NCBI GenBank assembly: GCA_026874595.1
Contig: CM049309.1
Coordinates: 12,574,576-12,638,575 of the forward strand
From: Sipunculus nudus
Taxonomy: Eukaryota > Annelida > Sipuncula > Golfingiida > Sipunculidae
Length of the DNA: 64,000 bases
Direction: 5' to 3'
Each line of letters begins with the position of its first letter. Positions within the stretch are counted from its first letter, which is position 1. This document shows positions 1 through 64,000 of the stretch, piece after piece. The translations under genes and the position numbers were made by a program. The notes beneath the pieces are model-generated. The model made no database searches, was not told the DNA's origin, and saw nothing but the letters and a program-made list of their open reading frames with translations.

Positions 1-5
1 TTAGG

Positions 6-1208
6 TTAAAAAGGAAACTGTTTGTGAAACTGGCTGAGCACCGTCTGGGTCTGTTCAGCAGGGATGAGGGCCATGAGCTCCAGGGCATCTCTCATTCTCT
101 TGAGCGTTTCATAGTTGTCTCTGCCCGTGACCGTCAGAGTGAAGACTTCCATATCACCTACTTTCCTCCGCTTGTCCATCGTGGCACCGACCTGCGGAGC
201 CCCAAGACCTGTGGCTTTTCTTTTCTGGCCCGCCTGTGGACCTGTCTTCTCATCCACCCGACGGTCCCGACCGGGGCAGGCACAGATTCGGACCTCGGCA
301 GACTGTCTGCCCAGCACTTGCCCCTGGTGTTCCAGCGTGAAGATGACCCTGAGAGGGCGTCTGTTCAGTCCACCCACACAGGAAGAGAAGCACATGAACT
401 GGTAGAGGTTGGTGATCCATTGGTTACCCGCTTGTGGTGTCTGATGAGATATAATGACTGACTGCCTGCGCGTTTCGGGGTCCTCGTAGTACCGGGAAAG
501 TGAATGTTCGCATCGCAGCAGGTGGGATGGTGCTGGGTGGTTGTCGTTGAACTCGCTTGTACCGGCGTGGTTTGGACATCGGGTGACGATCTCCTGCACG
601 TTGTCCGGTTTGACATAGACAGGCATGGCTCTGATAATACTACCACTGGGAGGTGGGGTGGCCGTGGTGAACTTGACCGGACAAGCATTGGCCATGCGCA
701 CATAGAGTTTATTCAGAGCTGGTGAGTAGGTCCAGTTGGCAGATTTGGTGTCCTTGACTGGCTGTTCGAAACCCACCTGGAAGCCGTAGTGGCCTGGGTA
801 TGCCGTGGCAGACGGCAGGTAGTGCTGCTGACCTGTGGCTGGAGAAGCCTGCGGTGACGGGGTTGATGTGGTCAGGGGTACAGGGATTTGCGAGTCCGCT
901 GCTCTGTCACTCATGTCACGTGACGCATTGGCTTCCAGCAGATCCTGTACGCTGTCGGCATGAGTGTAATATTCTTCGGGATCCGTTTTCAGAAGATCGG
1001 CGTGTGGACGGCCGAGAACTCCCTCCACGTCCGCCGTGCTGAGTGGACAGAGGTCCTCCGAATCCGAACCGGAACTGAGCGAATGCCACAGCTGATCCAC
1101 CTCATCTGAAACACCGTATTGCTCGGTGTCTTCTAGCACAAACGCTGGTTGCTTTTTCGCCGGGCTGGTTTGAAGATCGGTCCGATGATAGTGCATGAAT
1201 GAAGTCAT
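6..1208 (-). CDS. p53: p53 tumour-suppressor-family transcription factor, copy p1 (intronless)
   Basis: A 400-residue nuclear transcription factor with full p53 layout. Residues 33-56 form an acidic transactivation region with a V37-xxx-W41-xx-L44 motif where MDM2 binds in human p53. Residues about 115-150 are rich in proline, serine and threonine. The DNA-binding domain runs from about 153 to 317, with zinc ligands C211, H214, C273 and C277 (human C176, H179, C238, C242) and DNA-contact R283 and R307 (human R248, R273). K329-R330-K331 and K346 to K349 form a bipartite nuclear signal, and 353-382 is the tetramerisation strand and helix. The protein ends 18 residues later with no SAM domain. 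The start is supported by an in-frame TGA two codons upstream of the ATG. Copy-specific residues include G32, N94, Y130, N174, D202-N203 and S254, making p1 one of the more divergent open copies. Confidence 0.95.
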   Translation of the reverse strand: MTSFMHYHRTDLQTSPAKKQPAFVLEDTEQYGVSDEVDQLWHSLSSGSDSEDLCPLSTADVEGVLGRPHADLLKTDPEEYYTHADSVQDLLEANASRDMSDRAADSQIPVPLTTSTPSPQASPATGQQHYLPSATAYPGHYGFQVGFEQPVKDTKSANWTYSPALNKLYVRMANACPVKFTTATPPPSGSIIRAMPVYVKPDNVQEIVTRCPNHAGTSEFNDNHPAPSHLLRCEHSLSRYYEDPETRRQSVIISHQTPQAGNQWITNLYQFMCFSSCVGGLNRRPLRVIFTLEHQGQVLGRQSAEVRICACPGRDRRVDEKTGPQAGQKRKATGLGAPQVGATMDKRRKVGDMEVFTLTVTGRDNYETLKRMRDALELMALIPAEQTQTVLSQFHKQFPF

Positions 1209-1288
1209 TTTTTTTCAGTTATTGTGAATAGCAGGATGTTGTTATGTGAAAAGCGGCTCGGATACTGCAGTCAATTACGGGAAGTGGG

Positions 1289-1296: not shown

Positions 1297-1357
1297 TTTG
1301 ACCATTGTATTTAAAGTGATAAGTATTTCCTGAAGAGCGGTCAGTTCATAAGGCGTT

Positions 1358-1432: not shown

Positions 1433-1439
1433 CGATCAC

Positions 1440-3080: not shown

Positions 3081-3294
3081 ATAATATAATTGAATATGTC
3101 AAGCAAATGAAATAGTTTATGTAGCAACAATATTGACATAACCCGCAACAATTTACATGTACACAAGGATGTTAGAAAAATATTGTTATTTTAGTGGATC
3201 AACACGTAAAAGCACCGAGTGCACGAAATATAAGCATATACATAGATGTAATATATTATAGCACCTAAAGAGTTGTGAACCTAATATTTGAGGC

Positions 3295-3308
3295 GCTGCT
3301 CATGCAGC
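3295..3308. repeat. Short hairpin just 3' of p2
   Basis: GCTGC-TCAT-GCAGC forms a 5-bp stem with a 4-base loop about 30 bases past the p2 stop on the gene strand. The stem is weakened in S3, S4 and S9 (GCATC in place of GCAGC) and in S19 (a change in the loop region), so strict conservation is not seen. Confidence 0.4.
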
Positions 3309-3338
3309 AGGCATGCAGAATGTCCTCTGGAAATTAGG

Positions 3339-4541
3339 TTAAAAAGGAAACTGTTTGTGAAACTGGCTGAGCACCGTCTGGGTCTGTTCAGCAGGGATGA
3401 GGGCCATGAGCTCCAGGGCATCTCTCATTCTCTTGAGCGTTTCATAGTTGTCTCTGCCCGTGACCGTCAGAGTGAAGACTTCCATATCACCTACTTTCCT
3501 CCGCTTGTCCATCGTGGCACCGACCTGCGGAGCCCCAAGACCTGTGGCTTTTCTTTTCTGGCCCGCCTGTGGACCTGTCTTCTCATCCACCCGACGGTCC
3601 CGACCGGGGCAGGCACAGATTCGGACCTCGGCAGACTGTCTGCCCAGCACTTGCCCCTGGTGTTCCAGCGTGAAGATGACCCTGAGAGGGCGTCTGTTCA
3701 GTCCACCCACACAGGAAGAGAAGCACATGAACTGGTAGAGGTTGGTGATCCATTGGTTACCCGCTTGTGGTGTCTGATGAGGTATAATGACTGACTGCCT
3801 GAGCGTTTCGGGGTCCTCGTAGTACCGGGAAAGTGAATGTTCGCATCGCAGCAGGTGGGATGGTGCTGGGTGGTTGTCGTTGAACTCGCTTGTACCGGCG
3901 TGGTTTGGACATCGGGTGACGATCTCCTGCACGTGTTCCGGCTTGACATAGACAGGCATGGCTCTGATAATACTACCGCTGGGAGGTGGGGTGGCCGTGG
4001 TGAACTTGACCGGACAAGCAGTGGCCATGCGCACATAGAGTTTATTCAGAGCTGGTGAGTAGGTCCAGTTGGCAGATTTGGTGTCCTTGACTGGCTGTTC
4101 GAAACCCACCTGGAAGCCGTAGTGGCCTGGGTATGCCGTGGCAGACGGCAGGGAGTGCTGCTGGCCTGTGGCTGGAGAAGCCTGCGGTGACGGGGTTGAT
4201 GTGGTCAGGGGTACAGGGATTTGCGAGTCCGCTGCTCTGTCACTCATGTCACGTGACGCATTGGCTTCCAGCAGATCCTGTACGCTGTCGGCATGAGTGT
4301 AATATTCTTCGTGATCCGTTTTCAGAAGATCGGCGTGTGGACGGCCGAGAACTCCCTCCACGTCCGCCGTGCTGAGTGGACAGAGGTCCTCCGAATCCGA
4401 ACCGGAACTGAGCGAATGCCACAGCTGATCCACCTCATCTGAAACATCCTATTGCTCGGTGTCTTCTAGCTCAAACGCTGGTTGCTTTTTCGCCGGGCTG
4501 GTTTGAAGATCGGTCCGATGATAGTGCATGAATGAAGTCAT
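3339..4541 (-). pseudogene. p53: p53 copy p2, nonsense mutation at codon 31
   Basis: The locus has full length (1203 bases) but TAC for Y31 has become TAG, just before the transactivation motif. Codons 32 to 400 stay open. The first in-frame ATG after the stop is M99, so initiation there would give a protein of about 302 residues with intact DNA-binding and tetramerisation domains and no transactivation motif, similar in layout to delta-N p53/p63 forms. Other changes are V24E, P77H, D94N and R247L. The first three match p5, while the AAG codon for K200 matches p14 to p20, so p2 looks like a mosaic. It could also be a plain dead copy. Confidence 0.85.
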
Positions 4542-6671: not shown

Positions 6672-7874
6672 TTAAAAAGAAAACTGTTTGTGAAACTGGC
6701 TGAGCACCGTCTGGGTCTGTTCAGCAGGGATGAGGGCCATGAGCTCCAGGGCATCTCTCATTCTCTTGAGCGTTTCATAGTTGTCTCTGCCCGTGACCGT
6801 CAGAGTGAAGACTTCCATATCACCTACTTTCCTCCGCTTGTCCATCGTGGCACCGACCTGCGGAGCCCCAAGACCTGTGGCTTTTCTTTTCTGGCCCGCC
6901 TGTGGACCTGTCTTCTCATCCACCCGACGGTCCCGACCGGGGCAGGCACAGATTCGGACCTCGGCAGACTGTCTGCCCAGCACTTGCCCCTGGTGTTCCA
7001 GCGTGAAGATGACCCTGAGAGGGCGTCTGTTCAGTCCACCCACACAGGAAGAGAAGCACATGAACTGGTAGAGGTTGGTGATCCATTGGTTACCCGCTTG
7101 TGGTGTCTCATGAGGTATAATGACTGACTGCCTGCGCGTTTCGGGGTCCTCGTAGTACCGGGAAAGTGAATGTTCGCATCGCAGCAGGTGGGATGGTGCT
7201 GGGTGGTTGTCGTTGAACTCGCTTGTACCGGCGTGGTTTGGACATCGGGTGACGATCTCCTGCACGTGTTCCGGTTTGACATAGACAGGCATGGCTCTCA
7301 TAATACTACCGCTGGGAGGTGGGGTGGCCGTGGTGAACTTGACCGGACAAGCAGTGGCCATGCGCACATAGAGTTTATTCAGAGCTGGTGAGTAGGTCCA
7401 GTTGGCAGATTTGGTGTCCTTGACTGGCTGTTCGAAACCCACCTGGAAGCCGTAGTAGCCTGGGTATGCCGTGGCAGACGGCAGGGAGTGCTGCTGGCCT
7501 GTGGCTGGAGAAGCCTGCGGTGACGGGGTTGATGTGGTCAGGGGTACAGGGATTTGCGAGTCCGCTGCTCTGTCACTCATGTCACGTGACGCATCGGCTT
7601 CCAGCAGATCCTGTACGCTGTCGGCATGAGTGTAATATTCTTCGGGATCCGTTTTCAGAAGATCGGCGTGTGGACGGCCGAGAACTCCCTCCACGTCCGC
7701 CGTGCTGAGTGGACAGAGGTCCTCCGAATCCGAACCGGAACTGAGCGAATGCCACAGCTGATCCACCTCATCTGAAACATCGTTTTGCTCGGTGTCTTCT
7801 AGCACAAACGCTGGTTGCTTTTTCGCCGGGCTGGTTTGAAGATTGGTCCGATGATAGTGCATGAATGAAGTCAT
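6672..7874 (-). CDS. p53: p53 copy p3 (intronless, open)
   Basis: A complete 400-residue p53 frame with all zinc ligands and DNA-contact arginines. Distinguishing residues are N11, N31, Y140, M192, E256 (Q in most copies) and S399. The Q256E change is shared only with p9 and identifies p3 as the closest relative of the patch at p9. M192 replaces isoleucine at the place of human V157 in the DNA-binding core, a mild change. S399 near the C-terminus is shared with p6, p7, p9, p11 and p12. Confidence 0.94.
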   Translation of the reverse strand: MTSFMHYHRTNLQTSPAKKQPAFVLEDTEQNDVSDEVDQLWHSLSSGSDSEDLCPLSTADVEGVLGRPHADLLKTDPEEYYTHADSVQDLLEADASRDMSDRAADSQIPVPLTTSTPSPQASPATGQQHSLPSATAYPGYYGFQVGFEQPVKDTKSANWTYSPALNKLYVRMATACPVKFTTATPPPSGSIMRAMPVYVKPEHVQEIVTRCPNHAGTSEFNDNHPAPSHLLRCEHSLSRYYEDPETRRQSVIIPHETPQAGNQWITNLYQFMCFSSCVGGLNRRPLRVIFTLEHQGQVLGRQSAEVRICACPGRDRRVDEKTGPQAGQKRKATGLGAPQVGATMDKRRKVGDMEVFTLTVTGRDNYETLKRMRDALELMALIPAEQTQTVLSQFHKQFSF

Positions 7875-10009
7875 TTTTTTTTCAGTTATTGTGAATAGCA
7901 GGATGTTGTTATGTGAAAAGCGGCTCGGATACTGCAGTCAATTACGGGAAGTGGGTATATATATTTGACCATTGTATTTAAAGTGATAAGTATTTCCTGA
8001 AGAGCGGTCAGTTCATAAGGCGTTGTTGAGAGTAGATATCTAGCGCAGTCTGGTACTCGCCATCGCAGAACCTATTGGACACGGTCCATTACTCTCAACC
8101 CATCACATCACAGGGCGTGGGAGGAATGATTAGGTCGGGGCGCCCGGTGCGGGCAGGGCCGTCCCGGTCCACTGCTTCTCACTCGGAACCGGGCAAGCCT
8201 CTTGATTATCATTACCAGTGCTCAGTTAAGGGAAATGACTTCAAACGGAGACTTAAACAATCGCAATGTTCTTGCAGTGTAACAGTGAGAAGATTATTAC
8301 TCGGAGACCGCATTTAAATGCAGTTCAGAAAAGAGGGACAATCATCATTAATTCATGCAGTCGCTGGTATTTTGCCGCTGTTGCGCTGAAACTAAACAAC
8401 CATTTTAATTATCCTAGTGATACATAATAAAATAACAACAATTCAGTACAAGTACACGTGATGAGGTTCATTTAACAGGTTTGACTCAAGTGAATAATAT
8501 TTTTTTAATGAATTCTATTTGGGCCGAATCGAAAAAAAAATCTTATCTTCTCGTAATGATTTCTATTTTATGTGCTCCTCGATTAGAATTATAAAGGGTG
8601 ACACTAAAACTACCATTTTAAACGTAAAATGTTCGAAAGATTTTTGGCTATTTTTTTTTTTTTTTTTTTTTTTTAGGCTCATGGATTGACAGCGGTGATG
8701 TCATCCGGTGTGGGCGAAGTAACCAGCGACTAGGATAACCGCTGAGGAAACAGCTTCCGTAACTGACAGGCTTTAATAAATTAACAACTATATTTGTTCT
8801 CTTCTCACACACACATTCACGCGCGCACATGCAGTGAATCAATTTTTAATATATTAATGCGCACGATAAGAATAAAGAGATATATACATATCACCAATTA
8901 ACATATATATTTTACTGCAGTGTCGCTGAATATACGTCAGGTGAAGACATCATGCAGTTCTTACATCAAACATTGCCGGCAGTCTGACCGACACGCACAT
9001 GCATGTAAAAGTTTAAACAAACCAAAATGAGTCGTCAAGAAAAATCGACAAGTAACATCCAAAATGCAGTTACCAATAAAAATACATTTTAACCAATACC
9101 TGCAGAAATAAAAAAAAATTTCCTAACCGCTTTGATGTAATACCGAGCAAAAGATCAAAGGCTGTTGTTTGTAAATTTGATGAAATTCGGAATTTTATTT
9201 TTGGTTCACCAAAGGCAATATCAAAACAATAACGTTATCAAAAATAACTCCGACAAATTCACATGGCATTTTTATGTGTGACATTGAAAGTTTGGGTTGA
9301 GTTACAGAATTAATCGGAAACGAGCTCGATATACAGGAAAGCGGCCCTTCATTTTCATGTTCCGCTGCACTCTTGTAAAGGCCGAGGATTAATTTGCGGG
9401 AACAACTTTTGTTTTGCTATTGTACCGGTACAAAAGGCGACTTTGTCTGAGCCTGCGTATTCAGAAAATGAGATATCCTGGGTTCCATCATCTTTTAATA
9501 GTGGGCTTTATATTTTGCGGGATTTATTTCACGAGCCCCGGGCAAAGACTGCAACAAAGTATTCATGTTCGGAAAGCGCGTACTGCATTGAGTCTCTATA
9601 TATATAGTCTCCTGTATTGATAATGATGTAATCGCATGATTTTAATAAGGAAAATGGGTTACCAGAATTCGTAACAGACAGGATTTATTTTCTCCATATT
9701 TATTGAAGATAAATGACAATAATATCTGACAGTGGGTTGAAAATATTTATTATAATATAATTGAATATGTCAAGCAAATGAAATAGTTTATGTAGCAACA
9801 ATATTGACATAACCCGCAACAATTTACATGTACACAAGGATGTTAGAAAAATATTGTTATTTTAGTGGATCAACACGTAAAAGCACCGAGTGCACGAAAT
9901 ATAAGCAAATACATAGATGTAATATATTATAGCACCTAAAGAGTTGTGAACCTAATATTTGAGGCGCTGCTCATGCATCAGGCATGCAGAATGTCCTCTG
10001 GAAATTAGG
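7875..10009. repeat. Spacer S3 between p3 and p4
   Basis: 2135 bases. The T-tract has 24 T (8651-8674). GAGGTTCATTT near 8465 replaces GAGGTTTATTT, a variant shared with S7 and S12. A 4-base ATTT insertion near 9685 is shared with S4 and S9. No gene seen. Confidence 0.9.
7956..7963 (-). promoter_or_regulatory. TATA box of p3
   Basis: TATATATA 82 bases upstream of the p3 ATG; the leader A-run is one base longer than in p1. Confidence 0.6.
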
Positions 10010-11212
10010 TTAAAAAGGAAACTGTTTGTGAAACTGGCTAAGCACCGTCTGGGTCTGTTCAGCAGGGATGAGGGCCATGAGCTCCAGGGCATCTCTCATT
10101 CTCTTGAGCGTTTCATAGTTGTCTCTGCCCGTGACCGTCAGAGTGAAGACTTCCATATCACCTACTTTCCTCCGCTTGTCCATCGTGGCACCGACCTGCG
10201 GAGCCCCAAGACCTGTGGCTTTTCTTTTCTGGCCCGCCTGTGGACCTGTCTTCTCATCCACCCGACGGTCCCGACCGGAGCAGGCACAGATTCGGACCTC
10301 GGCAGACTGTCTGCCCAGCACTTGCCCCTGGTGTTCCAGCGTGAAGATGACCCTGAGAGGGCGTCTGTTCAGTCCACCCACACAGGAAGAGAAGCACATG
10401 AACTGGTAGAGGTTGGTGATCCATTGGTTACCCGCTTGTGGTGTCTGATGAGGTATAATGACTGACTGCCTGCGCGTTTCGGGGTCCTCGTAGTACCGGG
10501 AAAGTGAATGTTCGCATCGCAGCAGGTGGGATGGTGCTGGGTGGTTGTCGTTGAACTCGCTTGTACCGGCGTGGTTTGGACATCGGGTGACGATCTCCTG
10601 CACGTGTTCCGGTTTGACATAGACAGGCATGGCTCTCATAATACTACCGCTGGGAGGTGGGGTGGCCGTGGTGAACTTGACCGGACAAGCAGTGGCCATG
10701 CGCACATAGAGTTTATTCAGAGCTGGTGAGTAGGTCCAGTTGGCAGATTTGGTGTCCTTGACTGGCTGTTCGAAACCCACCTGGAAGCCGTAGTGGCCTG
10801 GGTATGCCGTGGCAGACGGCAGGGAGTGCTGCTGGCCTGTGGCTGGAGAAGCCTGCGGTGACGGGGTTGATGTGGTCAGGGGTACAGGGATTTGCGAGTC
10901 CGCTGCTCTGTCACTCATGTCACGTGACGCATCGGCTTCCAGCAGATCCTGTACGCTGTCGGCATGAGTGTAATATTCTTCGGGATCCGTTTTCAGAAGA
11001 TCGGCGTGTGGACGGCCGAGAACTCCCTCCACGTCCGCCGTGCTGAGTGGACAGAGGTCCTCCGAATCCGAACCGGAACTGAGCGAATGCCACAGCTGAT
11101 CCACCTCATCTGAAACATCGTATTGCTCGGTGTCTTCTAGCACAAACGCTGGTTGCTTTCTCGCCGGGCTGGTTTGAAGATGGGTCCGATGATAGTGCAT
11201 GAATGAAGTCAT
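10010..11212 (-). CDS. p53: p53 copy p4 (intronless, open, P312S)
   Basis: A complete 400-residue frame with H11, R18, M192 and S312. P312 is the proline of the CACPGRDRR segment, equal to human P278, in the loop-sheet-helix motif that contacts the major groove. P278 changes including serine are recurrent loss-of-function changes in human tumours, so p4 may encode a protein that tetramerises but binds DNA poorly. The tetramerisation domain and nuclear signal are unchanged. The frame is open, so I list it as a gene, with reduced certainty that its product acts as a normal p53. Confidence 0.92.
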   Translation of the reverse strand: MTSFMHYHRTHLQTSPARKQPAFVLEDTEQYDVSDEVDQLWHSLSSGSDSEDLCPLSTADVEGVLGRPHADLLKTDPEEYYTHADSVQDLLEADASRDMSDRAADSQIPVPLTTSTPSPQASPATGQQHSLPSATAYPGHYGFQVGFEQPVKDTKSANWTYSPALNKLYVRMATACPVKFTTATPPPSGSIMRAMPVYVKPEHVQEIVTRCPNHAGTSEFNDNHPAPSHLLRCEHSLSRYYEDPETRRQSVIIPHQTPQAGNQWITNLYQFMCFSSCVGGLNRRPLRVIFTLEHQGQVLGRQSAEVRICACSGRDRRVDEKTGPQAGQKRKATGLGAPQVGATMDKRRKVGDMEVFTLTVTGRDNYETLKRMRDALELMALIPAEQTQTVLSQFHKQFPF

Positions 11213-13358
11213 TTTTTTCAGTTATTGTGAATAGCAGGATGTTGTTATGTGAAAAGCGGCTCGGATACTGCAGTCAATTACGGGAAGTGGGTATATATAT
11301 TTGACCATTGTATTTAAAGTGATAAGTATTTCCTGAAGAGCGGTCAGTTCATAAGGCGTTGTTGAGAGTAGATATCTAGTGCAGTCTGGTACTCGCCATC
11401 GCAGAACCTATTGGACACGGTCCATTACTCTCAACCCATCACATCACAGGGCGTGGGAGGAATGATTAGGTCGGGGCGCCCGGTGCGGGCAGGGCCGTCC
11501 CGGTCCACTGCTTCTCACTCGGAACCGGGCAAGCCTCTTGATTATCATTACCAGTGCTCAGTTAAGGGAAATGACTTCAAACGGAGACTTAAACAATCGC
11601 AATGTTCTTGCAGTGTAACAGTGAGAAGATTATTACTCGGAGACCGCATTTAAATGCAGTTCAGAAAAGAGGGACAATCATCATTAATTCATGCAGTCGC
11701 TGGTATTTTGCCGCTGTTGCGCTGAAACTAAACAACCATTTTAATTATCCTAGTGATACATAATAAAATAACAACAATTCAGTACAAGTACACGTGATGA
11801 GGTTTATTTAACAGGTTTGACTCAAGTGAATAATATTTTTTTAATGAATTCTTTTTGGGCCGAATCGAAAAAAAAATCTTATCTTCTCGTAATGATTTCT
11901 ATTTTATGTGCTCCTCGATTAGAATTATTAGAATTATTAGAAGGGTGACACTAAAATTACCATTTTAAACGTAAAATGTTCGAAAGATTTTTGGCTATTT
12001 TTTTTTTTTTTTTTTTTTTTTTAGGCTCATGGATTGACAGCGGTGATGTCATCCGGTGTGGGCGAAGTAACCAGCGACTAGGATAACCGCTGAGGAAACA
12101 GCTTCCGTAACTGACAGGCTTTAATAAATTAACAACTATATTTGTTCTCTTCTCACACACACATTCACGCGCGCACATGCAGTGAATCAATTTTTAATAT
12201 ATTAATGCGCAAGATAAGAATAAAGAGATATATACATATCACCAATTAACATATATATTTTACTGCAGTGTCGCTGAATATACGTCAGGTGAAGACATCA
12301 TGCAGTTCTTACATCAAACATTGCCGGCAGTCTGACCGACACGCACATGCATGTAAAAGTTTAAACAAACCAAAATGAGTCGTCAAGAAAAATCGACAAG
12401 TAACATCCAAAAATGCAGTTACCAATAAAAATACATTTTAACCAATACCTGCAGAAATAAAAAAAAATTTCCTGACCGCTTTGATGTAATACCGAGCAAA
12501 AGATCAAAGGCTGTTGTTTGTAAATTTGATGAAATTCGGAATTTTATTTTTGGTTCACCAAAGGCAATATCAAAACGATAACGTTATCAAAAATAACTCC
12601 GACAAATTCACATGGCATTTTTATGTGTGACATTGAAAGTTTGGGTTGAGTTACAGAATTAATCGGAAACGAGCTCGATATACAGGAAAGCGGCCCTTCA
12701 TTTTCATGTTCCGCTGCACTCTTGTAAAGGCCGAGGATTAATTTGCGGGAACAACTTTTGTTTTGCTATTGTACCGGTACAAAAGGCGACTTTGTCTGAG
12801 CCTGCGTATTCAGAAAACGAGATATCCTGGGTTCCATCATCTTTTAATAGTGGGCTTTATATTTTGCGGGATTTATTTCACGAGCCCCGGGCAAAGACTG
12901 CAACAAAGTATTCATGTTCGGAAAGCGCGTACTGCATTGAGTCTCTATATATATAGTCTCCTGTATTGATAATGATGTAATCGCATGATTTTAATAAGGA
13001 AAATGGGTTACCAGAATTCGTAACAGACAGGATTTATTTTCTCCATATTTATTGAAGATAAATGACAATAATATCTGACAGTGGGTTGAAAATATTTATT
13101 ATAATATAATTGAATATGTCAAGCAAATGAAATAGTTTATGTAGCAACAATATTGACATAACCCGCAACAATTTACATGTACACAAGGATGTTAGAAAAA
13201 TATTGTTATTTTAGTGGATCAACACGTAAAAGCACCGAGTGCACGAAATATAAGCAAATACATAGATGTAATAGATTATAGCACCTAAAGAGTTGTGAAC
13301 CTAATATTTGAGGCGCTGCTCATGCATCAGGCATGCAGAATGTCCTCTGGAAATTAGG
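11213..13358. repeat. Spacer S4 between p4 and p5
   Basis: 2146 bases. The T-tract has 25 T (11998-12022). It carries a 9-base tandem duplication of TTAGAATTA at 11919-11936, which most spacers lack; it is shared with S8, S9 and S13. GTAATAGATTATAG near 13270 is shared only with S9. From about 11.8 kb this spacer belongs to the left copy of the higher-order repeat. Confidence 0.9.
11292..11299 (-). promoter_or_regulatory. TATA box of p4
   Basis: TATATATA 80 bases upstream of the p4 ATG; the leader A-run is one base shorter than in p1. Confidence 0.6.
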
Positions 13359-14306
13359 TTAAAAAGGAAACTGTTTGTGAAACTGGCTAAGCACCGTCTG
13401 GGTCTGTTCAGCAGGGATGAGGGCCATGAGCTCCAGGGCATCTCTCATTCTCTTGAGCGTTTCATAGTTGTCTCTGCCCGTGACCGTCAGAGTGAAGACT
13501 TCCATATCACCTACTTTCCTCCGCTTGTCCATCGTGGCACCGACCTGCGGAGCCCCAAGACCTGTGGCTTTTCTTTTCTGGCCCGCCTGTGGACCTGTCT
13601 TCTCATCCACCCGACGGTCCCGACCGGGGCAGGCACAGATTCGGACCTCGGCAGACTGTCTGCCCAGCACTTGCCCCTGGTGTTCCAGCGTGAAGATGAC
13701 CCTGAGAGGGCGTCTGTTGAGTCCACCCACACAGGAAGAGAAACACATGAACTGGTAGAGGTTGGTGATCCATTGGTTACCCGCTTGTGGTGTCTGATGA
13801 GGTATAATGACTGACTGCCTGCGCGTTTCGGGGTCCTCGTAGTACCGGGAAAGTGAATGTTCGCATCGCAGCAGGTGGGATGGTGCTGGGTGGTTGTCGT
13901 TGAACTCGCTTGTACCGGCGTGGTTTGGACATCAGGTGACGATCTCCTGCACGTGTTCCGGTTTGACATAGACAGGCATGGCTCTGATAATACTACCGCT
14001 GGGAGGTGGGGTGTCACGTGACGCATTGGCTTCCAGCAGATCCTGTACGCTGTCGGCATGAGTGTAATATTCTTCGTGATCCGTTTTCAGAAGATCGGCG
14101 TGTGGACGGCCGAGAACTCCCTCCACGTCCGCCGTGCTGAGTGGACAGAGGTCCTCCGAATCCGAACCGGAACTGAGCGAATGCCACAGCTGATCCACCT
14201 CATCTGAAACATCGTATTGCTCGGTGTCTTCTAGCTCAAACGCTGGTTGCTTTTTCGCCGGGCTGGTTTGAAGATCGGTCCGATGATAGTGCATGAATGA
14301 AGTCAT
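13359..14306 (-). pseudogene. p53: p53 copy p5, 85-codon deletion plus stop at R175 equivalent
   Basis: The locus is 948 bases instead of 1203. Codons 99 to 183 are missing in frame, removing the proline-rich linker and the first third of the DNA-binding domain. The join at about 14013 shares only TG with the lost side, which suggests end-joining. Codon 210 has changed from CGA to TGA; this is human R175, and the change is a C-to-T at a CpG. Only a short peptide of 124 residues could be made from the normal start. The sequence after the stop is still open to the usual end. V24E, P77H and D94N are present. Identical in structure to p10. Confidence 0.93.
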
Positions 14307-16432
14307 TTTTTTTTCAGTTATTGTGAATAGCAGGATGTTGTTATGTGAAAAGCGGCTCGGATACTGCAGTCAATTACGGGAAGTGGGTATATATATTTGA
14401 CCATTGTATTTAAAGTGATAAGTATTTCCTGAAGAGCGGTCAGTTCATAAGGCGTTGTTGAGAGTAGATATCTAGCGCAGTCTGGTACTCGCCATCGCAG
14501 AACCTATTGGACACGGTCCATTACTCTCAACCCATCACATCACAGGGCGTGGGAGGAATGATTAGGTCGGGGCGCCCGGTGCGGGCAGGGCCGTCCCGGT
14601 CCACTGCTTCTCACTCGGAACCGGGCAAGCCTCTTGATTATCATTACCAGTGCTCAGTTAAGGGAAATGACTTCAAACGGAGACTTAAACAATCGCAATG
14701 TTCTTGCAGTGTAACAGTGAGAAGATTATTACTCGGAGACCGCATTTAAATGCAGTTCAGAAAAGAGGGACAATCATCATTAATTCATGCAGTCGCTGGT
14801 ATTTTGCCGCTGTTGCGCTGAAACTAAACAACCATTTTAATTATCCTAGTGATACATAATAAAATAACAACAATTCAGTACAAGTACACGTGATGAGGTT
14901 TATTTAACAGGTTTGACTCAAGTGAATAATATTTTTTTAATGAATTCTTTTTGGGCCGAATCGAAAAAAAAAATCTTATCTTCTCGTAATGATTTCTATT
15001 TTATGTGCTCCTCGATTAGAATTATAAAGGGTGACACTAAAATTACCATTTTAAACGTAAAATGTTCGAAAGATTTTTGGCTATTTTTTTTTTTTTTTTT
15101 AGGCTCATGGATTGACAGCGGTGATGTCATCCGGTGTGGGCGAAGTAACCAGCGACTAGGATAACCGCTGAGGAAACAGCTTCCGTAACTGACAGGCTTT
15201 AATAAATTAACAACTATATTTGTTCTCTTCTCACACACACATTCACGCGCGCACATGCAGTGAATCAATTTTTAATATATTAATGCGCAAGATAAGAATA
15301 AAGAGATATATACATATCACCAATTAACATATATATTTTACTGCAGTGTCGCTGAATATACGTCAGGTGAAGACATCATGCAGTTCTTACATCAAACATT
15401 GCCGGCAGTCTGACCGACACGCACATGCATGTAAAAGTTTAAACAAACCAAAATGAGTCGTCAAGAAAAATCGACAAGTAACATCCAAAAATGCAGTTAC
15501 CAATAAAAATACATTTTAACCAATACCTGCAGAAATAAAAAAAAATTTCCTAACCGCTTTGATGTAATACCGAGCAAAAGATCAAAGGCTGTTGTTTGTA
15601 AATTTGATGAAATTCGGAATTTTATTTTTGGTTCACCAAAGGCAATATCAAAACAATAACGTTATCAAAAATAACTCCGACAAATTCACATGGCATTTTT
15701 ATGTGTGACATTGAAAGTTTGGGTTGAGTTACAGAATTAATCGGAAACGAGCTCGATATACAGGAAAGCGGCCCTTCATTTTCATGTTCCGCTGCACTCT
15801 TGTAAAGGCCGAGGATTAATTTGCGGGAACAACTTTTGTTTTGCTATTGTACCGGTACAAAAGGCGACTTTGTCTGGGCCTGCGTATTCAGAAAACGAGA
15901 TATCCTGGGTTCCATCATCTTTTAATAGTGGGCTTTATATTTTGCGGGATTTATTTCACGAGCCCCGGGCAAAGACTGCAACAAAGTATTCATGTTCGGA
16001 AAGCGCGTACTGCATTGAGTCTCTATATATATAGTCTCTTGTATTGATAATGATGTAATCGCATGATTTTAATAAGGAAAATGGGTTACCAGAATTCGTA
16101 ACAGACAGGATTTTCTCCATATTTATTGAAGATAAATGACAATAATATCTGACAGTGGGTTGAAAATATTTATTATAATATAATTGAATATGTCAAGCAA
16201 ATGAAATAGTTTATGTAGCAACAATATTGACATAACCCGCAACAATTTACATGTACACAAGGATGTTAGAAAAATATTGTTATTTTAGTGGATCAACACG
16301 TAAAAGCACCGAGTGCACGAAATATAAGCAAATACATAGATGTAATATATTATAGCACCTAAAGAGTTGTGAACCTAATATTTGAGGCGCTGCTCATGCA
16401 GCAGGCATGCAGAATGTCCTCTGGAAATTAGG
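14307..16432. repeat. Spacer S5 between p5 and p6
   Basis: 2126 bases with the usual elements and a short T-tract of 17 (15084-15100). It has the same length and tract as S10, its partner in block B. No gene seen. Confidence 0.9.
14388..14395 (-). promoter_or_regulatory. TATA box of p5
   Basis: TATATATA 82 bases upstream of the p5 ATG, unaffected by the lesions in the gene. Confidence 0.6.
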
Positions 16433-49543: not shown

Positions 49544-50746
49544 TTAAAAAGGAAACTGTTTGTGAAACTGGCTGAGCACCGTCTGGGTCTGTTCAGCAGG
49601 GATGAGGGCCATGAGCTCCAGGGCATCTCTCATTCTCTTGAGCGTTTCATAGTTGTCTCTGCCCGTGACCGTCAGAGTGAAGACTTCCATATCACCTACT
49701 TTCCTCCGCTTGTCCATCGTGGCACCGACCTGCGGAGCCCCAAGACCTGTGGCTTTTCTTTTCTGGCCCGCCTGTGGACCTGTCTTCTCATCCACCCGAC
49801 GGTCCCGACCGGGGCAGGCACAGATTCGGACCTCGGCAGACTGTCTGCCCAGCACTTGCCCCTGGTGTTCCAGCGTGAAGATGACCCTGAGAGGGCGTCT
49901 GTTGAGTCCACCCACACAGGAAGAGAAGCACATGAACTGGTAGAGGTTGGTGATCCATTGGTTACCCGCTTGTGGTGTCTGATGAGGTATAATGACTGAC
50001 TGCCTGCGCGTTTCGGGGTCCTCGTAGTACCGGGAAAGTGAATGTTCGCATCGCAGCAGGTGGGATGGTGCTGGGTGGTTGTCGTTGAACTCGCTTGTAC
50101 CGGCGTGGTTTGGACATCGGGTGACGATCTCCTGCACGTGTTCCGGCTTGACATAGACAGGCATGGCTCTGATAATACTACCGCTGGGAGGTGGGGTGGC
50201 CGTGGTGAACTTGACCGGACAAGCAGTGGCCATGCGCACATAGAGTTTATTCAGAGCTGGTGAGTAGGTCCAGTTGGCAGATTTGGTGTCCTTGACTGGC
50301 TGTTCGAAACCCACCTGGAAGCCGTAGTGGCCTGGGTATGCCGTGGCAGACGGCAGGGAGTGCTGCTGGCCTGTGGCTGGAGAAGCCTGCGGTGACGGGG
50401 TTGATGTGGTCAGGGGTACAGGGATTTGCGAGTCCGCTGCTCTGTCACTCATGTCACGTGACGCATCGGCTTCCAGCAGATCCTGTACGCTGTCGGCATG
50501 AGTGTAATATTCTTCGGGATCCGTTTTCAGAAGATCGGCGTGTGGACGGCCGAGAACTCCCTCCACGTCCGCCGTGCTGAGTGGACAGAGGTCCTCCGAA
50601 TCCGAACCGGAACTGAGCGAATGCCACAGCTGATCCACCTCATCTGAAACATCGTATTGCTCGGTGTCTTCTAGCACAAACGCTGGTTGCTTTTTCGCCG
50701 GGCTGGTTTGAAGATCGGTCCGATGATAGTGCATGAATGAAGTCAT
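49544..50746 (-). CDS. p53: p53 copy p16 (intronless, open, consensus protein)
   Basis: A complete 400-residue frame that matches the majority residue at every variable position I compared, so it is the best single representative of the family in this window. Residue numbers in the other entries refer to it. The tetramerisation domain has N365 and A380 where human p53 has the R337-D352 salt-bridge pair, which is lost on both sides. Confidence 0.95.
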   Translation of the reverse strand: MTSFMHYHRTDLQTSPAKKQPAFVLEDTEQYDVSDEVDQLWHSLSSGSDSEDLCPLSTADVEGVLGRPHADLLKTDPEEYYTHADSVQDLLEADASRDMSDRAADSQIPVPLTTSTPSPQASPATGQQHSLPSATAYPGHYGFQVGFEQPVKDTKSANWTYSPALNKLYVRMATACPVKFTTATPPPSGSIIRAMPVYVKPEHVQEIVTRCPNHAGTSEFNDNHPAPSHLLRCEHSLSRYYEDPETRRQSVIIPHQTPQAGNQWITNLYQFMCFSSCVGGLNRRPLRVIFTLEHQGQVLGRQSAEVRICACPGRDRRVDEKTGPQAGQKRKATGLGAPQVGATMDKRRKVGDMEVFTLTVTGRDNYETLKRMRDALELMALIPAEQTQTVLSQFHKQFPF

Positions 50747-52880: not shown

Positions 52881-54083
52881 TTAAAAAGGAAACTGTTTGT
52901 GAAACTGGCTAAGCACCGTCTGGGTCTGTTCAGCAGGGATGAGGGCCATGAGCTCCAGGGCATCTCTCATTCTCTTGAGCGTTTCATAGTTGTCTCTGCC
53001 CGTGACCGTCAGAGTGAAGACTTCCATATCACCTACTTTCCTCCGCTTGTCCATCGTGGCACCGACCTGCGGAGCCCCAAGACCTGTGGCTTTTCTTTTC
53101 TGGCCCGCCTGTGGACCTGTCTTCTCATCCACCCGACGGTCCTGACCGGGGCAGGCACAGATTCTAACCTCGGCAGACTGTCTGCCCAGCACTTGCCCCT
53201 GGTGTTCCAGCGTGAAGATGACCCTGAGAGGGCGTCAGTTGAGTCCACCCACACAGGAAGAGAAGCACATGAACTGGTAGAGGTTGGTGATCCATTGGTT
53301 ACCCGCTTGTGGTGTCTGATGAGGTATAATGACTGACTGCCTGCGCGTTTCGGGGTCCTCGTAGTACCGGGAAAGTGAATGTTCGCATCGCAGCAGGTGG
53401 GATGGTGCTGGGTGGTTGTCGTTGAACTCGCTTGTACCGGCGTGGTTTGGACATCGGGTGACGATCTCCTGCACGTGTTCCGGCTTGCCATAGACAGGCA
53501 TGGCTCTGATAATACTACCGCTGGGAGGTGGGGTGGCCGTGGTGAACTTGACCGGACAAGCAGTGGCCATGCGCACATAGAGTTTATTCAGAGCTGGTGA
53601 GTAGGTCCAGTTGGCAGATTTGGTGTCCTTGACTGGCTGTTCGAAACCCACCTGGAAGCCGTAGTGGCCTGGGTATGCCGTGGCAGACGGCAGGGAGTGC
53701 TGCTGGCCTGTGGCTGGAGAAGCCTGCGGTGACGGGGTTGATGTGGTCAGGGGTACAGGGATTTGCGAGTCCGCTGCTCTGTCACTCATGTCACGTGACG
53801 CATCGGCTTCCAGCAGATCCTGTACGCTGTCGGCATGAGTGTAATATTCTTCGGGATCCGTTTTCAGAAGATCGGCGTGTGGACGGCCGAGAACTCCCTC
53901 CACGTCCGCCGTGCTGAGTGGACAGAGGTCCTCCGAATCCGAACCGGAACTGAGCGAATGCCACAGCTGATCCACCTCATCTGAAACATCGTATTGCTCG
54001 GTGTCTTCCAGCACAAACGCTGGTTGCTTTCTCGCCGGGCTGGTTTGAAGATCGGTCCGATGATAGTGCATGAATGAAGTCAT
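52881..54083 (-). pseudogene. p53: p53 copy p17, stop at R248 equivalent
   Basis: Full length, but codon 283 has changed from AGA to TGA. This is the human R248 position in the GGLNRRP loop. The predicted product has 282 residues and lacks the end of the DNA-binding domain, the nuclear signal and the tetramerisation domain. Further changes fit relaxed constraint: V199G before the stop and R314Q (human R280) after it. R18 is present. Codons 284 to 400 are otherwise open. Confidence 0.92.
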
Positions 54084-56210: not shown

Positions 56211-57413
56211 TTATAAAGGAAACTGTTTGTGAAACTGGCTGAGCACCGTCTGGGTCTGTTCAGCAGGGATGAGGGCCATGAGCTCCAGGGCATCTCTCAT
56301 TCTCTTGAGCGTTTCATAGTTGTCTCTGCCCGTGACCGTCAGAGTGAAGACTTCCATATCACCTACTTTCCTCCGCTTGTCCATCGTGGCACCGACCTGC
56401 GGAGTCCCAAGACCTGTGGCTTTTCTTTTCTGGCCCGCCTGTGGACCTGTCTTCTCATCCACCCGACGGTCCCGACCGGGGCAGGCACAGATTCGGACCT
56501 CGGCAGACTGTCTGCCCAGCACTTGCCCCTGGTGTTCCAGCGTGAAGATGACCCTGAGAGGGCGTCTGTTCAGTCCACCCACACAGGAAGAGAAGCACAT
56601 GAACTGGTAGAGGTTGGTGATCCATTGGTTACCCGCTTGTGGTGTCTGATGAGGTATAATGACTGACTGCCTGCGCGTTTCGGGGTCCTCGTAGTACCGG
56701 GAAAGTGAATGTTCGCATCGCAGCAGGTGGGATGGTGCTGGGTGGTTGTCGTTGAACTCGCTTGTACCGGCGTGGTTTGGACATCGGGTGACGATCTCCT
56801 GCACGTGTTCCGGCTTGACATAGACAGGCATGGCTCTGATAATACTACCGCTGGGAGGTGGGGTGGCCGTGGTGAACTTGACCGGACAAGCAGTGGCCAT
56901 GCGCACATAGAGTTTATTCAGAGCTGGTGAGTAGGTCCAGTTGGCAGATTTGGTGTCCTTGACTGGCTGTTCGAAACCCACCTGGAAGCAGTAGTGGCCT
57001 GGGTATGCCGTGGCAGACGGCAGGGAGTGCTGCTGGCCTGTGGCTGGAGAAGCCTGCGGTGACGGGGTTGATGTGGTCAGGGGTACAGGGATTTGCGAGT
57101 CCGCTGCTCTGTCACTCATGTCACGTGACGCATCGGCTTCCAGCAGATCCTGTACGCTGTCGGCATGAGTGTAATATTCTTCGGGATCCGTTTTCAGAAG
57201 ATCGGCGTGTGGACGGCCGAGAACTCCCTCCACGTCCGCCGTGCTGAGTGGACAGAGGTCCTCCGAATCCGAACCGGAACTGAGCGAATGCCACAGCTGA
57301 TCCACCTCATCTGAAACATCGTATTGCTCGGTGTCTTCTAGCACAAACGCTGGTTGCTTTTTCGCCGGGCTGGTTTGAAGATCGGTCCGATGATAGTGCA
57401 TGAATGAAGTCAT
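56211..57413 (-). CDS. p53: p53 copy p18 (intronless, open)
   Basis: A complete 400-residue frame with C142, T337 and L400. C142 lies in the [10 protein letters not shown] segment just before the DNA-binding core, T337 in the linker between the two halves of the nuclear signal, and L400 is the final residue. The three changes spare all DNA-binding, zinc and tetramer contacts. Confidence 0.94.
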   Translation of the reverse strand: MTSFMHYHRTDLQTSPAKKQPAFVLEDTEQYDVSDEVDQLWHSLSSGSDSEDLCPLSTADVEGVLGRPHADLLKTDPEEYYTHADSVQDLLEADASRDMSDRAADSQIPVPLTTSTPSPQASPATGQQHSLPSATAYPGHYCFQVGFEQPVKDTKSANWTYSPALNKLYVRMATACPVKFTTATPPPSGSIIRAMPVYVKPEHVQEIVTRCPNHAGTSEFNDNHPAPSHLLRCEHSLSRYYEDPETRRQSVIIPHQTPQAGNQWITNLYQFMCFSSCVGGLNRRPLRVIFTLEHQGQVLGRQSAEVRICACPGRDRRVDEKTGPQAGQKRKATGLGTPQVGATMDKRRKVGDMEVFTLTVTGRDNYETLKRMRDALELMALIPAEQTQTVLSQFHKQFPL

Positions 57414-59537: not shown

Positions 59538-60740
59538 TTAAAAAGGAAACTGTTTGTGAAACTGGCTGAGCACCGTCTGGGTCTGTTCAGCAGGGATGAG
59601 GGCCATGAGCTCCAGGGCATCTCTCATTCTCTTGAGCGTTTCATAGTTGTCTCTGCCCGTGACCGTCAGAGTGAAGACTTCCATATCACCTACTTTCCTC
59701 CGCTTGTCCATCGTGGCACCGACCTGCGGAGCCCCAAGACCTGTGGCTTTTCTTTTCTGGCCCGCCTGTGGACCTGTCTTCTCATCCACCCGACGGTCCC
59801 GACCGGGGCAGGCACAGATTCGGACCTCGGCAGACTGTCTGCCCAGCACTTGCCCCTGGTGTTCCAGCGTGAAGATGACCCTGAGAGGGCGTCTGTTCAG
59901 TCCACCCACACAGGAAGAGAAGCACATGAACTGGTAGAGGTTGGTGATCCATTGGTTACCCGCTTGTGGTGTCTGATGAGGTATAATGACTGACTGCCTG
60001 CGCGTTTCGGGGTCCTCGTAGTACCGGGAAAGTGAATGTTCGCATCGCAGCAGGTGGGATGGTGCTGGGTGGTTGTCGTTGAACTCGCTTGTACCGGCGT
60101 GGTTTGGACATCGGGTGACGATCTCCTGCACGTGTTCCGGCTTGACATAGACAGGCATGGCTCTGATAATACTACCGCTGGGAGGTGGGGTGGCCGTGGT
60201 GAACTTGACCGGACAAGCAGTGGCCATGCGCACATAGAGTTTATTCAGAGCTGGTGAGTAGGTCCAGTTGGCAGATTTGGTGTCCTTGACTGGCTGTTCG
60301 AAACCCACCTGGAAGCCGTAGTGGCCTGGGTATGCCGTGGCAGACGGCAGGGAGTGCTGCTGGCCTGTGGCTGGAGAAGCCTGCGGTGACGGGGTTGATG
60401 TGGTCAGGGGTACAGGGATTTGCGAGTCCGCTGCTCTGTCACTCATGTCACGTGACGCATCGGCTTCCAGCAGATCCTGTACGCTGTCGGCATGAGTGTA
60501 ATATTCTTCGGGATCCGTTTTCAGAAGATCGGCGTGTGGACGGCCGAGAACTCCCTCCACGTCCGCCGTGCTGAGTGGACAGAGGTCCTCCGAATCCGAA
60601 CCGGAACTGAGCGAATGCCACAGCTGATCCACCTCATCTGAAACATCGTATTGCTCGGTGTCTTCTAGCACAAACGCTGGTTTCTTTTTCGCCGGGCTCG
60701 TTTGAAGATCGGTCCGATGATAGTGCATGAATGAAGTCAT
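59538..60740 (-). CDS. p53: p53 copy p19 (intronless, open)
   Basis: A complete 400-residue frame that differs from the p16 protein only by K20 (Q in the others), which extends a small basic cluster near the N-terminus. It encodes a near-consensus p53. Confidence 0.95.
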   Translation of the reverse strand: MTSFMHYHRTDLQTSPAKKKPAFVLEDTEQYDVSDEVDQLWHSLSSGSDSEDLCPLSTADVEGVLGRPHADLLKTDPEEYYTHADSVQDLLEADASRDMSDRAADSQIPVPLTTSTPSPQASPATGQQHSLPSATAYPGHYGFQVGFEQPVKDTKSANWTYSPALNKLYVRMATACPVKFTTATPPPSGSIIRAMPVYVKPEHVQEIVTRCPNHAGTSEFNDNHPAPSHLLRCEHSLSRYYEDPETRRQSVIIPHQTPQAGNQWITNLYQFMCFSSCVGGLNRRPLRVIFTLEHQGQVLGRQSAEVRICACPGRDRRVDEKTGPQAGQKRKATGLGAPQVGATMDKRRKVGDMEVFTLTVTGRDNYETLKRMRDALELMALIPAEQTQTVLSQFHKQFPF

Positions 60741-62866
60741 TTTTTTTCAGTTATTGTGAATAGCAGGATGTTGTTATGTGAAAAGCGGCTCGGATACTGC
60801 AGTCAATTACGGGAAGTGGGTATATATATTTGACCATTGTATTTAAAGTGATAAGTATTTCCTGAAGAGCGGTCAGTTCATAAGGCGTTGTTGAGAGTAG
60901 ATATCTAGCGCAGTCTGGTACTCGCCATCGCAGAACCTATTGGACACGGTCCATTACTCTCAACCCATCACATCACAGGGCGTGGGAGGAATGATTAGGT
61001 CGGGGCGCCCGGTGCGGGCAGGGCCGTCCCGGTCCACTGCTTCTCACTCGGAACCGGGCAAGCCTCTTGATTATCATTACCAGTGCTCAGTTAAGGGAAA
61101 TGACTTCAAACGGAGAATTAAACAATCGCAATGTTCTTGCAGTGTAACAGTGAGAAGATTATTACTCGGAGACCGCATTTAAATGCAGTTCAGAAAAGAG
61201 GGACAATCATCATTAATTCATGCAGTCGCTGGTATTTTGCCGCTGTTGCGCTGAAACTAAACAACCATTTTAATTATCCTAGTGATACATAATAAAATAA
61301 CAACAATTCAGTACAAGTACACGTGATGAGGTTTATTTAACAGGTTTGACTCAAGTGAATAATATTTTTTTAATGAATTCTATTTGGGCCGAATCGAAAA
61401 AAAAATCTTATCTTCTCGTAATGTTTTCTATTTTATGTGCTCCTCGATTAGAATTATAAAGGGTGACACTAAAATTACCATTTTAAACGTAAAATGTTCG
61501 AAAGATTTTTGGCTATGTTTTTTTGTTTTTTTTTTAGGCTCATGGATTGACAGCGGTGATGTCATCCGGTGTGGGCGAAGTAACCAGCGACTAGGATAAC
61601 CGCTGAGGAAACAGCTTCCGTAACTGACAGGCTTTAATAAATTAACAACTATATTTGTTCTCTTCTCACACACACATTCACGCGCGCACATGCAGTGAAT
61701 CAATTTTTAATATATTAATGCGCAAGATAAGAATAAAGAGATATATACATATCACCAATTAACATATATATTTTACTGCAGTGTCGCTGAATATACGTCA
61801 GGTGAAGACATCATGCAGTTCTTACATCAAACATTGCCGGCAGTCTGACCGACACGCACATGCATGTAAAAGTTTAAACAAACCAAAATGAGTCGTCAAG
61901 AAAAATAGACAAGTAACATCCAAAAATGCAGTTACCAATAAAAATACATTTTAACCAATACCTGCAGAAATAAAAAAAATTTCCTAACCGCTTTGATGTA
62001 ATACCGAGCAAAAGATCAAAGGCTGTTGTTTGTAAATTTGATGAAATTCGGAATTTTATTTTTGGTTCACCAAAGGCAATATCAAAACGATAACGTTATC
62101 AAAAATAACTCCGACAAATTCACATGGCATTTTTATGTGTGACATTGAAAGTTTGGGTTGAGTTACAGAATTAATCGGAAACGAGCTCGATATACAGGAA
62201 AGCGGCCCTTCATTTTCATGTTCCGCTGCACTCTTGTAAAGGTCGAGGATTAATTTGCGGGAACAACTTTTGTTTTGCTATTGTACCGGTACAAAAGGCG
62301 ACTTTGTCTGGGCCTGCGTATTCAGAAAATGAGATATCCTGGGTTCCATCATCTTTTAATAGTGGGCTTTATATTTTGCGGGATTTATTTCACGAGCCCC
62401 GGGCAAAGACTGCAACAAAGTATTCATGTTCGGAAAGCGCGTACTGCATTGAGTCTCTATATATATAGTCTCTTGTATTGATAATGATGTAATCGCATGA
62501 TTTTAATAAGGAAAATGGGTTACCAGAATTCGTAACAGACAGGATTTTCTCCATATTTATTGAAGATAAATGACAATAATATCTGACAGTGGGTTGAAAA
62601 TATTTATTATAATATAATTGAATATGTCAAGCAAATGAAATAGTTTATGTAGCAACAATATTGACATAACCCGCAACAATTGACATGTACACAAGGATGT
62701 TAGAAAAATATTGTTATTTTAGTGGATTAACACGTAAAAGCACCGAGTGCACGAAATATAAGCAAATACATAGATGTAATATATTATAGCACCTAAAGAG
62801 TTGTGAACCTAATATTTGAGGCGCTGCTCATTCAGCAGGCATGCAGAATGTCCTCTGGAAATTAGG
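60741..62866. repeat. Spacer S19 between p19 and p20
   Basis: 2126 bases. The T-tract is interrupted by G: 7 T (61518-61524), G, 10 T (61526-61535). It shares with S18 the AGAATTAAAC variant near 61114. GCTCATTCAG near 62826 alters the small hairpin 3' of p20. Confidence 0.9.
60821..60828 (-). promoter_or_regulatory. TATA box of p19
   Basis: TATATATA 81 bases upstream of the p19 ATG. Confidence 0.6.
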
Positions 62867-64000
62867 TTAAAAAGGAAACTGTTTGTGAAACTGGCTGAGC
62901 ACCGTCTGGGTCTGTTCAGCAGGGATGAGGGCCATGAGCTCCAGGGCATCTCTCATTCTCTTGAGCGTTTCATAGTTGTCTCTGCCCGTGACCGTCAGAG
63001 TGAAGACTTCCATATCACCTACTTTCCTCCGCTTGTCCATCGTGGCACCGACCTGCGGAGCCCCAAGACCTGTGGCTTTTCTTTTCTGGCCCGCCTGTGG
63101 ACCTGTCTTCTCATCCACCCGACGGTCCCGACCGGGGCAGGCACAGATTCGGACCTCGGCAGACTGTCTGCCCAGCACTTGCCCCTGGTGTTCCAGCGTG
63201 AAGATGACCCTGAGAGGGCGTCTGTTCAGTCCACCCACACAGGAAGAGAAGCACATGAACTGGTAGAGGTTGGTGATCCATTGGTTACCCGCTTGTGGTG
63301 TCTGATGAGGTATAATGACTGACTGCCTGCGCGTTTCGGGGTCCTCGTAGTACCGGGAAAGTGAATGTTCGCATCGCAGCAGGTGGGATGGTGCTGGGTG
63401 GTTGTCGTTGAACTCGCTTGTACCGGCGTGGTTTGGACATCGGCTGACGATCTCCTGCACGTGTTCCGGCTTGACATAGACAGGCATGGCTCTGATAATA
63501 CTACCGCTGGGAGGTGGGGTGGCCGTGGTGAACTTGACCGGACAAGCAGTGGCCATGCGCACATAGAGTTTATTCAGAGCTGGTGAGTAGGTCCAGTTGG
63601 CAGATTTGGTGTCCTTGACTGGCTGTTCGAAACCCACCTGGAAGCCGTAGTGGCCTGGGTATGCCGTGGCAGACGGCAGGGAGTGCTGCTGGCCTGTGGC
63701 TGGAGAAGCCTGCGGTGACGGGGTTGATGTGGTCAGGGGTACAGGGATTTGCGAGTCCGCTGCTCTGTCACTCATGTCACGTGACGCATCGGCTTCCAGC
63801 AGATCCTGTACGCTGTCGGCATGAGTGTAATATTCTTCGGGATCCGTTTTCAGAAGATCGGCGTGTGGACGGCCGAGAACTCCCTCCACGTCCGCCGTGC
63901 TGAGTGGACAGAGGTCCTCCGAATCCGAACCGGAACTGAGCGAATGCCACAGCTGATCCACCTCATCTGAAACATCGTATTGCTCGGTGTCTTCTAGCAC
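62867..64000 (-). CDS. p53: p53 copy p20 (intronless, 5' end outside window)
   Basis: Open from codon 24 to the stop; the first 23 codons and the promoter lie past position 64000. The only protein difference seen from the p16 consensus is T209S, next to the R175-equivalent R210. The domain content is otherwise complete. The cut is the window edge and not a lesion. Confidence 0.93.
   Translation of the reverse strand: MLEDTEQYDVSDEVDQLWHSLSSGSDSEDLCPLSTADVEGVLGRPHADLLKTDPEEYYTHADSVQDLLEADASRDMSDRAADSQIPVPLTTSTPSPQASPATGQQHSLPSATAYPGHYGFQVGFEQPVKDTKSANWTYSPALNKLYVRMATACPVKFTTATPPPSGSIIRAMPVYVKPEHVQEIVSRCPNHAGTSEFNDNHPAPSHLLRCEHSLSRYYEDPETRRQSVIIPHQTPQAGNQWITNLYQFMCFSSCVGGLNRRPLRVIFTLEHQGQVLGRQSAEVRICACPGRDRRVDEKTGPQAGQKRKATGLGAPQVGATMDKRRKVGDMEVFTLTVTGRDNYETLKRMRDALELMALIPAEQTQTVLSQFHKQFPF

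Follow-up and report, generated by a model that had tools for sequence, protein, structure and literature searches.

The nearest described case to the locus reported here is the primate ELOA3 array, a homogenised tandem repeat with an intronless retrogene in each of its units and an intron-bearing homologue elsewhere. ELOA3 is present in 12 copies in CHM13, in 4-26 in human and in 22-67 in other primate haplotypes, and its copies are 97% intact in primates, under modest purifying selection and of demonstrated function (PMC10664989). The DUX4/D4Z4 array is comparable in that a DNA-binding transcription-factor retrogene, in that case a homeobox gene, lies within each macrosatellite unit. The DUX4/D4Z4 unit also measures ~3.3 kb, as does the one described below. 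Here we analyse a 64-kb stretch of the genome of the sipunculan annelid Sipunculus nudus (assembly GCA_026874595.1; C4:12,574,576-12,638,575, where C4 is the 97.5-Mb contig CM049309.1), which is without N, is referred to below as the window, and lies within a tandem array of intronless p53 genes. The array is best read as one of a known kind (ELOA3, DUX4/D4Z4), but larger and carrying p53, and it is probably a long-functional p53 retrogene that was recently amplified into a gene-bearing macrosatellite.

In elephants, a single intron-bearing TP53 gene is accompanied by numerous intronless copies, ~20 retrogenes of which at least one is truncated in the DNA-binding domain (DBD) (PMC5061548, PMC9935553). 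In contrast, the S. nudus array is continuous and comprises 138 units, most of the sampled copies are full length, and older, mostly open intronless frames are found on contigs C5 and C2. The array differs from ELOA3 in its 138 units, in the share of intact copies (61 of the 99 sampled), in its near-neutral evolution, in carrying a p53 gene and in being known from sequence alone. Capitella and Helobdella are reported to have a single p53-family gene each, and several invertebrate lineages have gained multiple p53 copies by independent duplications (PMC8901663), so that multiplicity as such is not new. Among the top-ranked results of a search of titles and abstract openings in the open-licence PMC literature, no report of an invertebrate p53 tandem array was found.

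The p53 array on contig C4

When the window was searched by BLAST with one unit, 20 unit starts were returned, 19 of complete units and one of a unit cut at position 64,000; in all of them the p53 frame lies on the minus strand, and identity to the reference unit is 98.5-100%. The original prediction of 20 same-strand p53 frames at a spacing of ~3.33 kb, 13 of them complete and open, was thus borne out, as 13 open reading frames (ORFs) of 400 amino acids ran open from ATG to stop. Its count of "at least 20" copies described a real array but proved a large underestimate, since the array as a whole contains 138 units, ~7 times the window count. This number was obtained from a PF00870 profile search of the assembly (1.43 Gb in 153 contigs, from which the labels C2, C4, C5 and C15 are taken), in which 150 of 176 candidates were scored. 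Of these, 141 lay on C4, all within the array, with seven on C5 and one each on C2 and C15; three of the C4 matches were second pieces of one unit. The spacing between C4 matches was always <=3.4 kb, with a median of 3,330 bp over 120 regular gaps, and the array is therefore continuous, spanning ~455 kb from C4:12,527,974 to ~12,983,000; incomplete or degenerate pieces of the unit lie past both ends. Many near-identical, kilobase-sized units thus lie head to tail, each carrying an ORF, as in gene-bearing macrosatellites of the ELOA3/DUX4 kind. In another genome search, 104 of 184 candidates were scored, of which 91 were stop-free and 13 had at least one stop; by the coordinates from this search, neighbouring units of the same score lay ~124.1 kb apart.

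Unit length in the window was mostly 3,327-3,351 bp, apart from two units of 3,074 bp owing to a deletion. The intact frames, all on the minus strand, lie at 6-1208 (W01), 6672-7874 (W03, the reference copy P0001), 10010-11212 (W04), 16433-17635 (W06), 19765-20967 (W07), 26443-27645 (W09), 32868-34070 (W11), 36200-37402 (W12), 42879-44081 (W14), 46212-47414 (W15), 49544-50746 (W16), 56211-57413 (W18) and 59538-60740 (W19). Six units on the same strand are broken: W02 (3339-4541) by an in-frame stop at codon 31, W05 (13359-14306) by a 255-bp deletion with the first stop at codon 125, W08 (23100-24303) and W13 (39536-40739) each by a 1-bp insertion, W17 (52881-54083) by a stop at codon 283, and W10 (29794-30741), which shows zero substitutions relative to W05. 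The unit cut by the window edge, W20 (62867-64000, minus strand), was intact when followed beyond the window (locus L111). Two successive five-unit blocks of ~16.4 kb each, at 10010-26442 and 26443-42878 (minus strand), could be aligned unit by unit, and the paired units differed by 10, 0, 2, 0 and 1 substitutions, so that a block duplication is visible within the window.

Further features were recorded in and around the array. A 168-residue frame antisense to the 3' end of p53 occurs 16 times in the window on the plus strand (3288-3794 and 15 other places) and is probably mechanical. The final two units of the array (L012:1063-8941; C4:12,977,562-12,985,440) are ~3.9-4.0 kb long, and in each of them part of the p53 frame is duplicated with an overlap. 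Near the left edge, outside the array, lies a ~1.2-kb interspersed repeat (L011:3720-4940; C4:12,523,720-12,524,940), for which the best 40 of 12,892 candidates fell on many contigs, with long matches 82-88% identical.

The array protein and the spacer

The array protein matched the Pfam P53 DNA-binding domain (PF00870, E 2e-63) and the P53_tetramer domain (PF07710, E 2.4e-12), which in the reference copy occupy residues 136-322 and 346-385, respectively; no SAM domain was present among its Pfam matches. Among 61 intact copies the motifs RCPNH (59 copies), [14 protein letters not shown] (60) and RICACPGRDR (59) were kept, which hold the zinc-ligand and DNA-contact residues of the p53 family. 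At the position of FxxxWxxL, the p53-family transactivation motif that binds MDM2, 59 of the 61 intact copies read VDQLWHSL, in which W and L are retained and V stands instead of F. The affinity of this motif for MDM2 varies widely among animals (PMC10303687). A SWIB search of the genome, with all nine candidates scored, gave a single match over 54 of 74 positions, which is possibly not MDM2. The array protein also matched solved p53/p63/p73 chains (best 1.2e-95), of which the closest relative was 7pc6, an annelid DBD from Alvinella pompejana (PMC8901663), which is 68% identical to that of the array; chance resemblance is not a concern. F occupies the position of human N239, a site at which an aromatic residue is reported for annelids and, outside this group, almost exclusively for lineages that branch off earlier (PMC8901663). 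This F and the 86% identity of the C15 DBD (see below) to that of Alvinella suggest an annelid.

Besides a 24-base poly-A tract (8651-8674), the spacer of the reference unit (7875-10009, minus strand) contains the 3' flank of the copy next to it and, as judged by eye, a TATA-like stretch that precedes the ATG at a short distance. No full p53 response element was found in the spacer at <=2 mismatches (0.35 expected in shuffles), with one perfect half-site present, and p53 self-regulation of the array was rejected on this ground. Capture of p53 by a transposon acting as carrier was likewise not favoured, because the scored matches of two spacer stretches (the best 40 of 141 and of 140 first-look candidates genome-wide) were all confined to the array.

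An intron-bearing homologue and other intronless p53 loci

The original prediction had proposed a search of the same genome for an intron-containing parental p53/p63/p73 gene, and a p63/p73-like gene was found on C15. Five exons with GT/AG borders (L003 1990-2068, 4242-4428, 4877-5093, 5503-5707 and 6494-6615) span its DNA-binding and tetramerisation stretch, and downstream of them, at C15:52,535,558, lies a SAM-type exon that was identified through its motif and assessed visually; the Capitella p53-family gene, too, has a SAM-type exon. The DBD of the C15 gene is 72% identical to that of the array and 86% to the Alvinella DBD 7PC6. No transactivation motif marking its first exons was found in C15:52,509,500-52,521,500. 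Four introns interrupt the C15 coding stretch that matches the array gene, which upholds the description of the latter as intronless; with an intron-bearing homologue in the same genome, the array gene is best explained as a retrogene, and the C15 gene is likely its parent.

The array proved to be one of several intronless p53 loci, which corrects the original prediction. Eight further intronless frames, one of them broken, were found on C5 (seven) and C2 (one). Four lie at C5:29,051,000-29,072,000 (L004-L006), partly as tandem units of ~5.7 kb that are 95% identical over 10.5 kb, in a cluster far diverged from the C4 array; three lie at C5 15.98-16.01 Mb, one of them with two in-frame stops. 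The single frame on C2 (C2:22,967,000, L010) is open and highly diverged, and its N-terminal motif is changed (DPIWHPI). Identity of the array DBD is 72-74% with the C5 DBDs and 61% with that of C2. Alignment of the C4 unit with the C5 and C2 loci was limited to coding DNA, and the intronless genes have the N-terminal stretch S(S/T)(A/T)DV(E/D)(A/G)VL in common. In a tree of 12 DBDs, in which five of nine inner branches had support below 80 and C2 and human p63 formed long branches, the C4 array grouped with the C5 copies (96/91) and these with C2 (87/80), with the C15 gene and Alvinella p53 placed apart.

Synonymous divergence (dS) between C4 and C5 was 1.7-1.9 and is saturated, with four-fold sites ~40% alike and a ratio of non-synonymous to synonymous divergence (omega) of 0.14-0.22; between C4 and the C15 gene, dS was 2.9 and likewise saturated. 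The C4 consensus, the C2 frame and six of the seven C5 frames are stop-free, and frames that stay open at such distances show that selection has maintained the gene. Pairwise omega among the C5 copies, pooled over pairs that are not independent and with the broken copy excluded, was 0.40. The mean pairwise divergence among the array ORFs was 0.73%. These comparisons show that the retrogene lineage is old and, as judged from its sequences, long functional, and that amplification of the array is recent. Thus the idea of an mRNA-derived p53 that was amplified stands as to the retrogene and its amplification, but the retrocopying itself is ancient and only the amplification recent.

Selection inside the array

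Selection was analysed in 99 ORFs: the window contributed 19, and the other 80 were retrieved from among 90 units that make up three blocks elsewhere in the array. Under a strict definition, in which a lost ATG or a lost stop counts as broken, 61 were intact and 38 broken, in agreement with the original prediction of a gene-bearing tandem array with most copies intact; 78 of the 99 sequences were distinct, and the intact ORFs encoded 48 distinct proteins. The 200 distinct coding changes comprised 130 that alter an amino acid (N), 59 silent ones (S), nine nonsense changes and two in the stop codon. The N/S/nonsense fractions of 0.657/0.298/0.045 were close to the 0.685/0.271/0.043 expected from the mutation spectrum of the spacer (p=0.38), and under that spectrum the ratio of amino-acid-changing to silent changes per site (pN/pS) was 0.87 (bootstrap 0.85, 0.63-1.20). 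Nonsense changes relative to silent ones stood at 0.95 (0.38-1.82) and thus at an approximately neutral rate, and the 19 window units had equal numbers of distinct changes per base in coding DNA (50/1203) and in the spacer (86/2129). Intact copies were not more constrained than broken ones, since the N/S of changes restricted to intact copies was 2.32 and that of changes restricted to broken copies 1.80. A depletion of coding indels (2 vs 23 in the spacer) was considered as a sign of selection and rejected, as it disappeared once simple repeats were left out (2 vs 4). These results show array copies that appear to drift close to neutrally, at a level that excludes strong constraint and is compatible with weak constraint.

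Bacterial contigs in the assembly

The hits of a COX1 search of the assembly were bacterial oxidases together with a 51-residue fragment on C5; no full-length mitochondrial gene was among them. Nine matches of near-equal score fell on bacterial contigs (C60, C61, C62, C66, C72, C74, C75 and C89; L015, L016), and C123, which carries a cbb3-type oxidase, is also a bacterial contig. Relatives of the C60 oxidase among the matches listed (at least 80) were 52-58% identical. These contigs possibly represent several strains of one symbiont.

Discussion

Under our preferred reading, an intronless p53-like gene without a SAM domain would have arisen long ago by reverse transcription of the mRNA of the p63/p73-like C15 gene, and its lineage would have kept its function and reached C2, C5 and C4. 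One gene of this lineage on C4 would then, as a 3.33-kb stretch that includes its flanks, recently have multiplied into ~138 head-to-tail units, presumably by unequal exchange and block duplication. We infer that some copies are transcribed and supply a p53-like transcription factor that is redundant and mostly intact, that no single copy is indispensable, and that individuals differ in copy number.

Several points weigh against this reading. The bootstrap interval of pN/pS reaches down to 0.63 and leaves room for mild constraint; N/S in the DBD was 1.88 against an expected 2.51 (p=0.20); and under assumed flat spectra with a transition weight of 1, 2 or 3, pN/pS was 0.72 (p=0.035), 0.81 (p=0.19) or 0.88 (p=0.42), respectively. 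For the founding retrocopy no poly-A tail with a target-site duplication was assigned, the copy being old and the spacer holding the 24-base poly-A tract mentioned above; together with the missing first exons of the C15 gene, this makes direct parenthood of that gene an indirect conclusion. A single origin of the intronless genes depends on the place of C2, which joins the others at 87/80 on a long branch. Separate retrocopying events behind the C4, C5 and C2 genes, a matter of origin that is distinct from the other alternatives, would agree with the great divergence of C2 and with the alignment of coding DNA alone between the C4 unit and the other loci; in view of the 96/91 grouping of C4 with C5, the 87/80 grouping of all intronless genes and their common N-terminal stretch, we regard such separate events as unlikely.

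As to why the array exists, the original prediction had suggested a raised p53 dose or tumour resistance. This is not supported, as the array copies gave no clear sign of purifying selection, but redundancy, too, would let single copies drift almost neutrally, so the dosage idea is not refuted; the drift fits a passive macrosatellite and would also fit a dose array of more than 100 individually dispensable copies. An array amplified and kept because many p53 copies enhance the response to DNA damage, or an immune or germline response, as has been suggested for the elephant retrogenes, would account for the 61 of 99 intact copies with their 48 distinct proteins, for a lineage that was constrained before amplification and for the recency of that amplification, and selection per copy in so large an array may be too weak to see. 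A pN/pS of 0.87 and a neutral rate of nonsense changes speak against such an adaptation, as does the comparison of the 62% intact copies here with ELOA3, 97% intact in primates (93% in human haplotypes) under modest purifying selection (PMC10664989), and we hold it to be distinctly improbable. It is unlikely, in our estimate, that the array serves as a dose reservoir, in which more than 100 p53-like genes, many of them expressed, SAM-less and with an altered MDM2 motif, would give an unusually strong or MDM2-independent p53 response in soma, germline or embryo, with a copy number that could change quickly. By analogy with DUX4, the array might instead be silent in the body and expressed in the germline or early embryo, its p53-like factor acting in development or genome surveillance. 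This draws on resemblance only, namely a DNA-binding-factor retrogene in each macrosatellite unit, as in DUX4/D4Z4, and the precedent of ELOA3 as a methylated, inducible retrogene array (PMC10664989); no regulatory motif was demonstrated in the spacer, and the idea seems to us very unlikely. False duplication in the assembly could have inflated the copy number, as the near identity of some 16-kb blocks (four of the five unit pairs differ by 0-2 substitutions) and the same-score neighbours ~124.1 kb apart might suggest. Such an artefact would scarcely yield 78 distinct ORFs among 99 and 200 distinct coding changes; furthermore, the 99 ORF stretches and the window are without N, the left flank has a repeat present on many contigs of the same assembly, and we consider this explanation highly improbable.

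A gene-bearing macrosatellite recently derived from a long-functional retrogene is the reading that we retain. Extra p53 is toxic in many animals, and since the array frames are mostly intact, the question arises whether they are silenced, buffered or used. A role of the array in cancer protection is possible on the present genomic evidence. The array far exceeds the reported elephant expansion of ~20 copies and may offer a natural copy-number series for the debate on Peto's paradox, and it would represent an independent route from a SAM-bearing p63/p73-like gene to a SAM-less p53-like gene.

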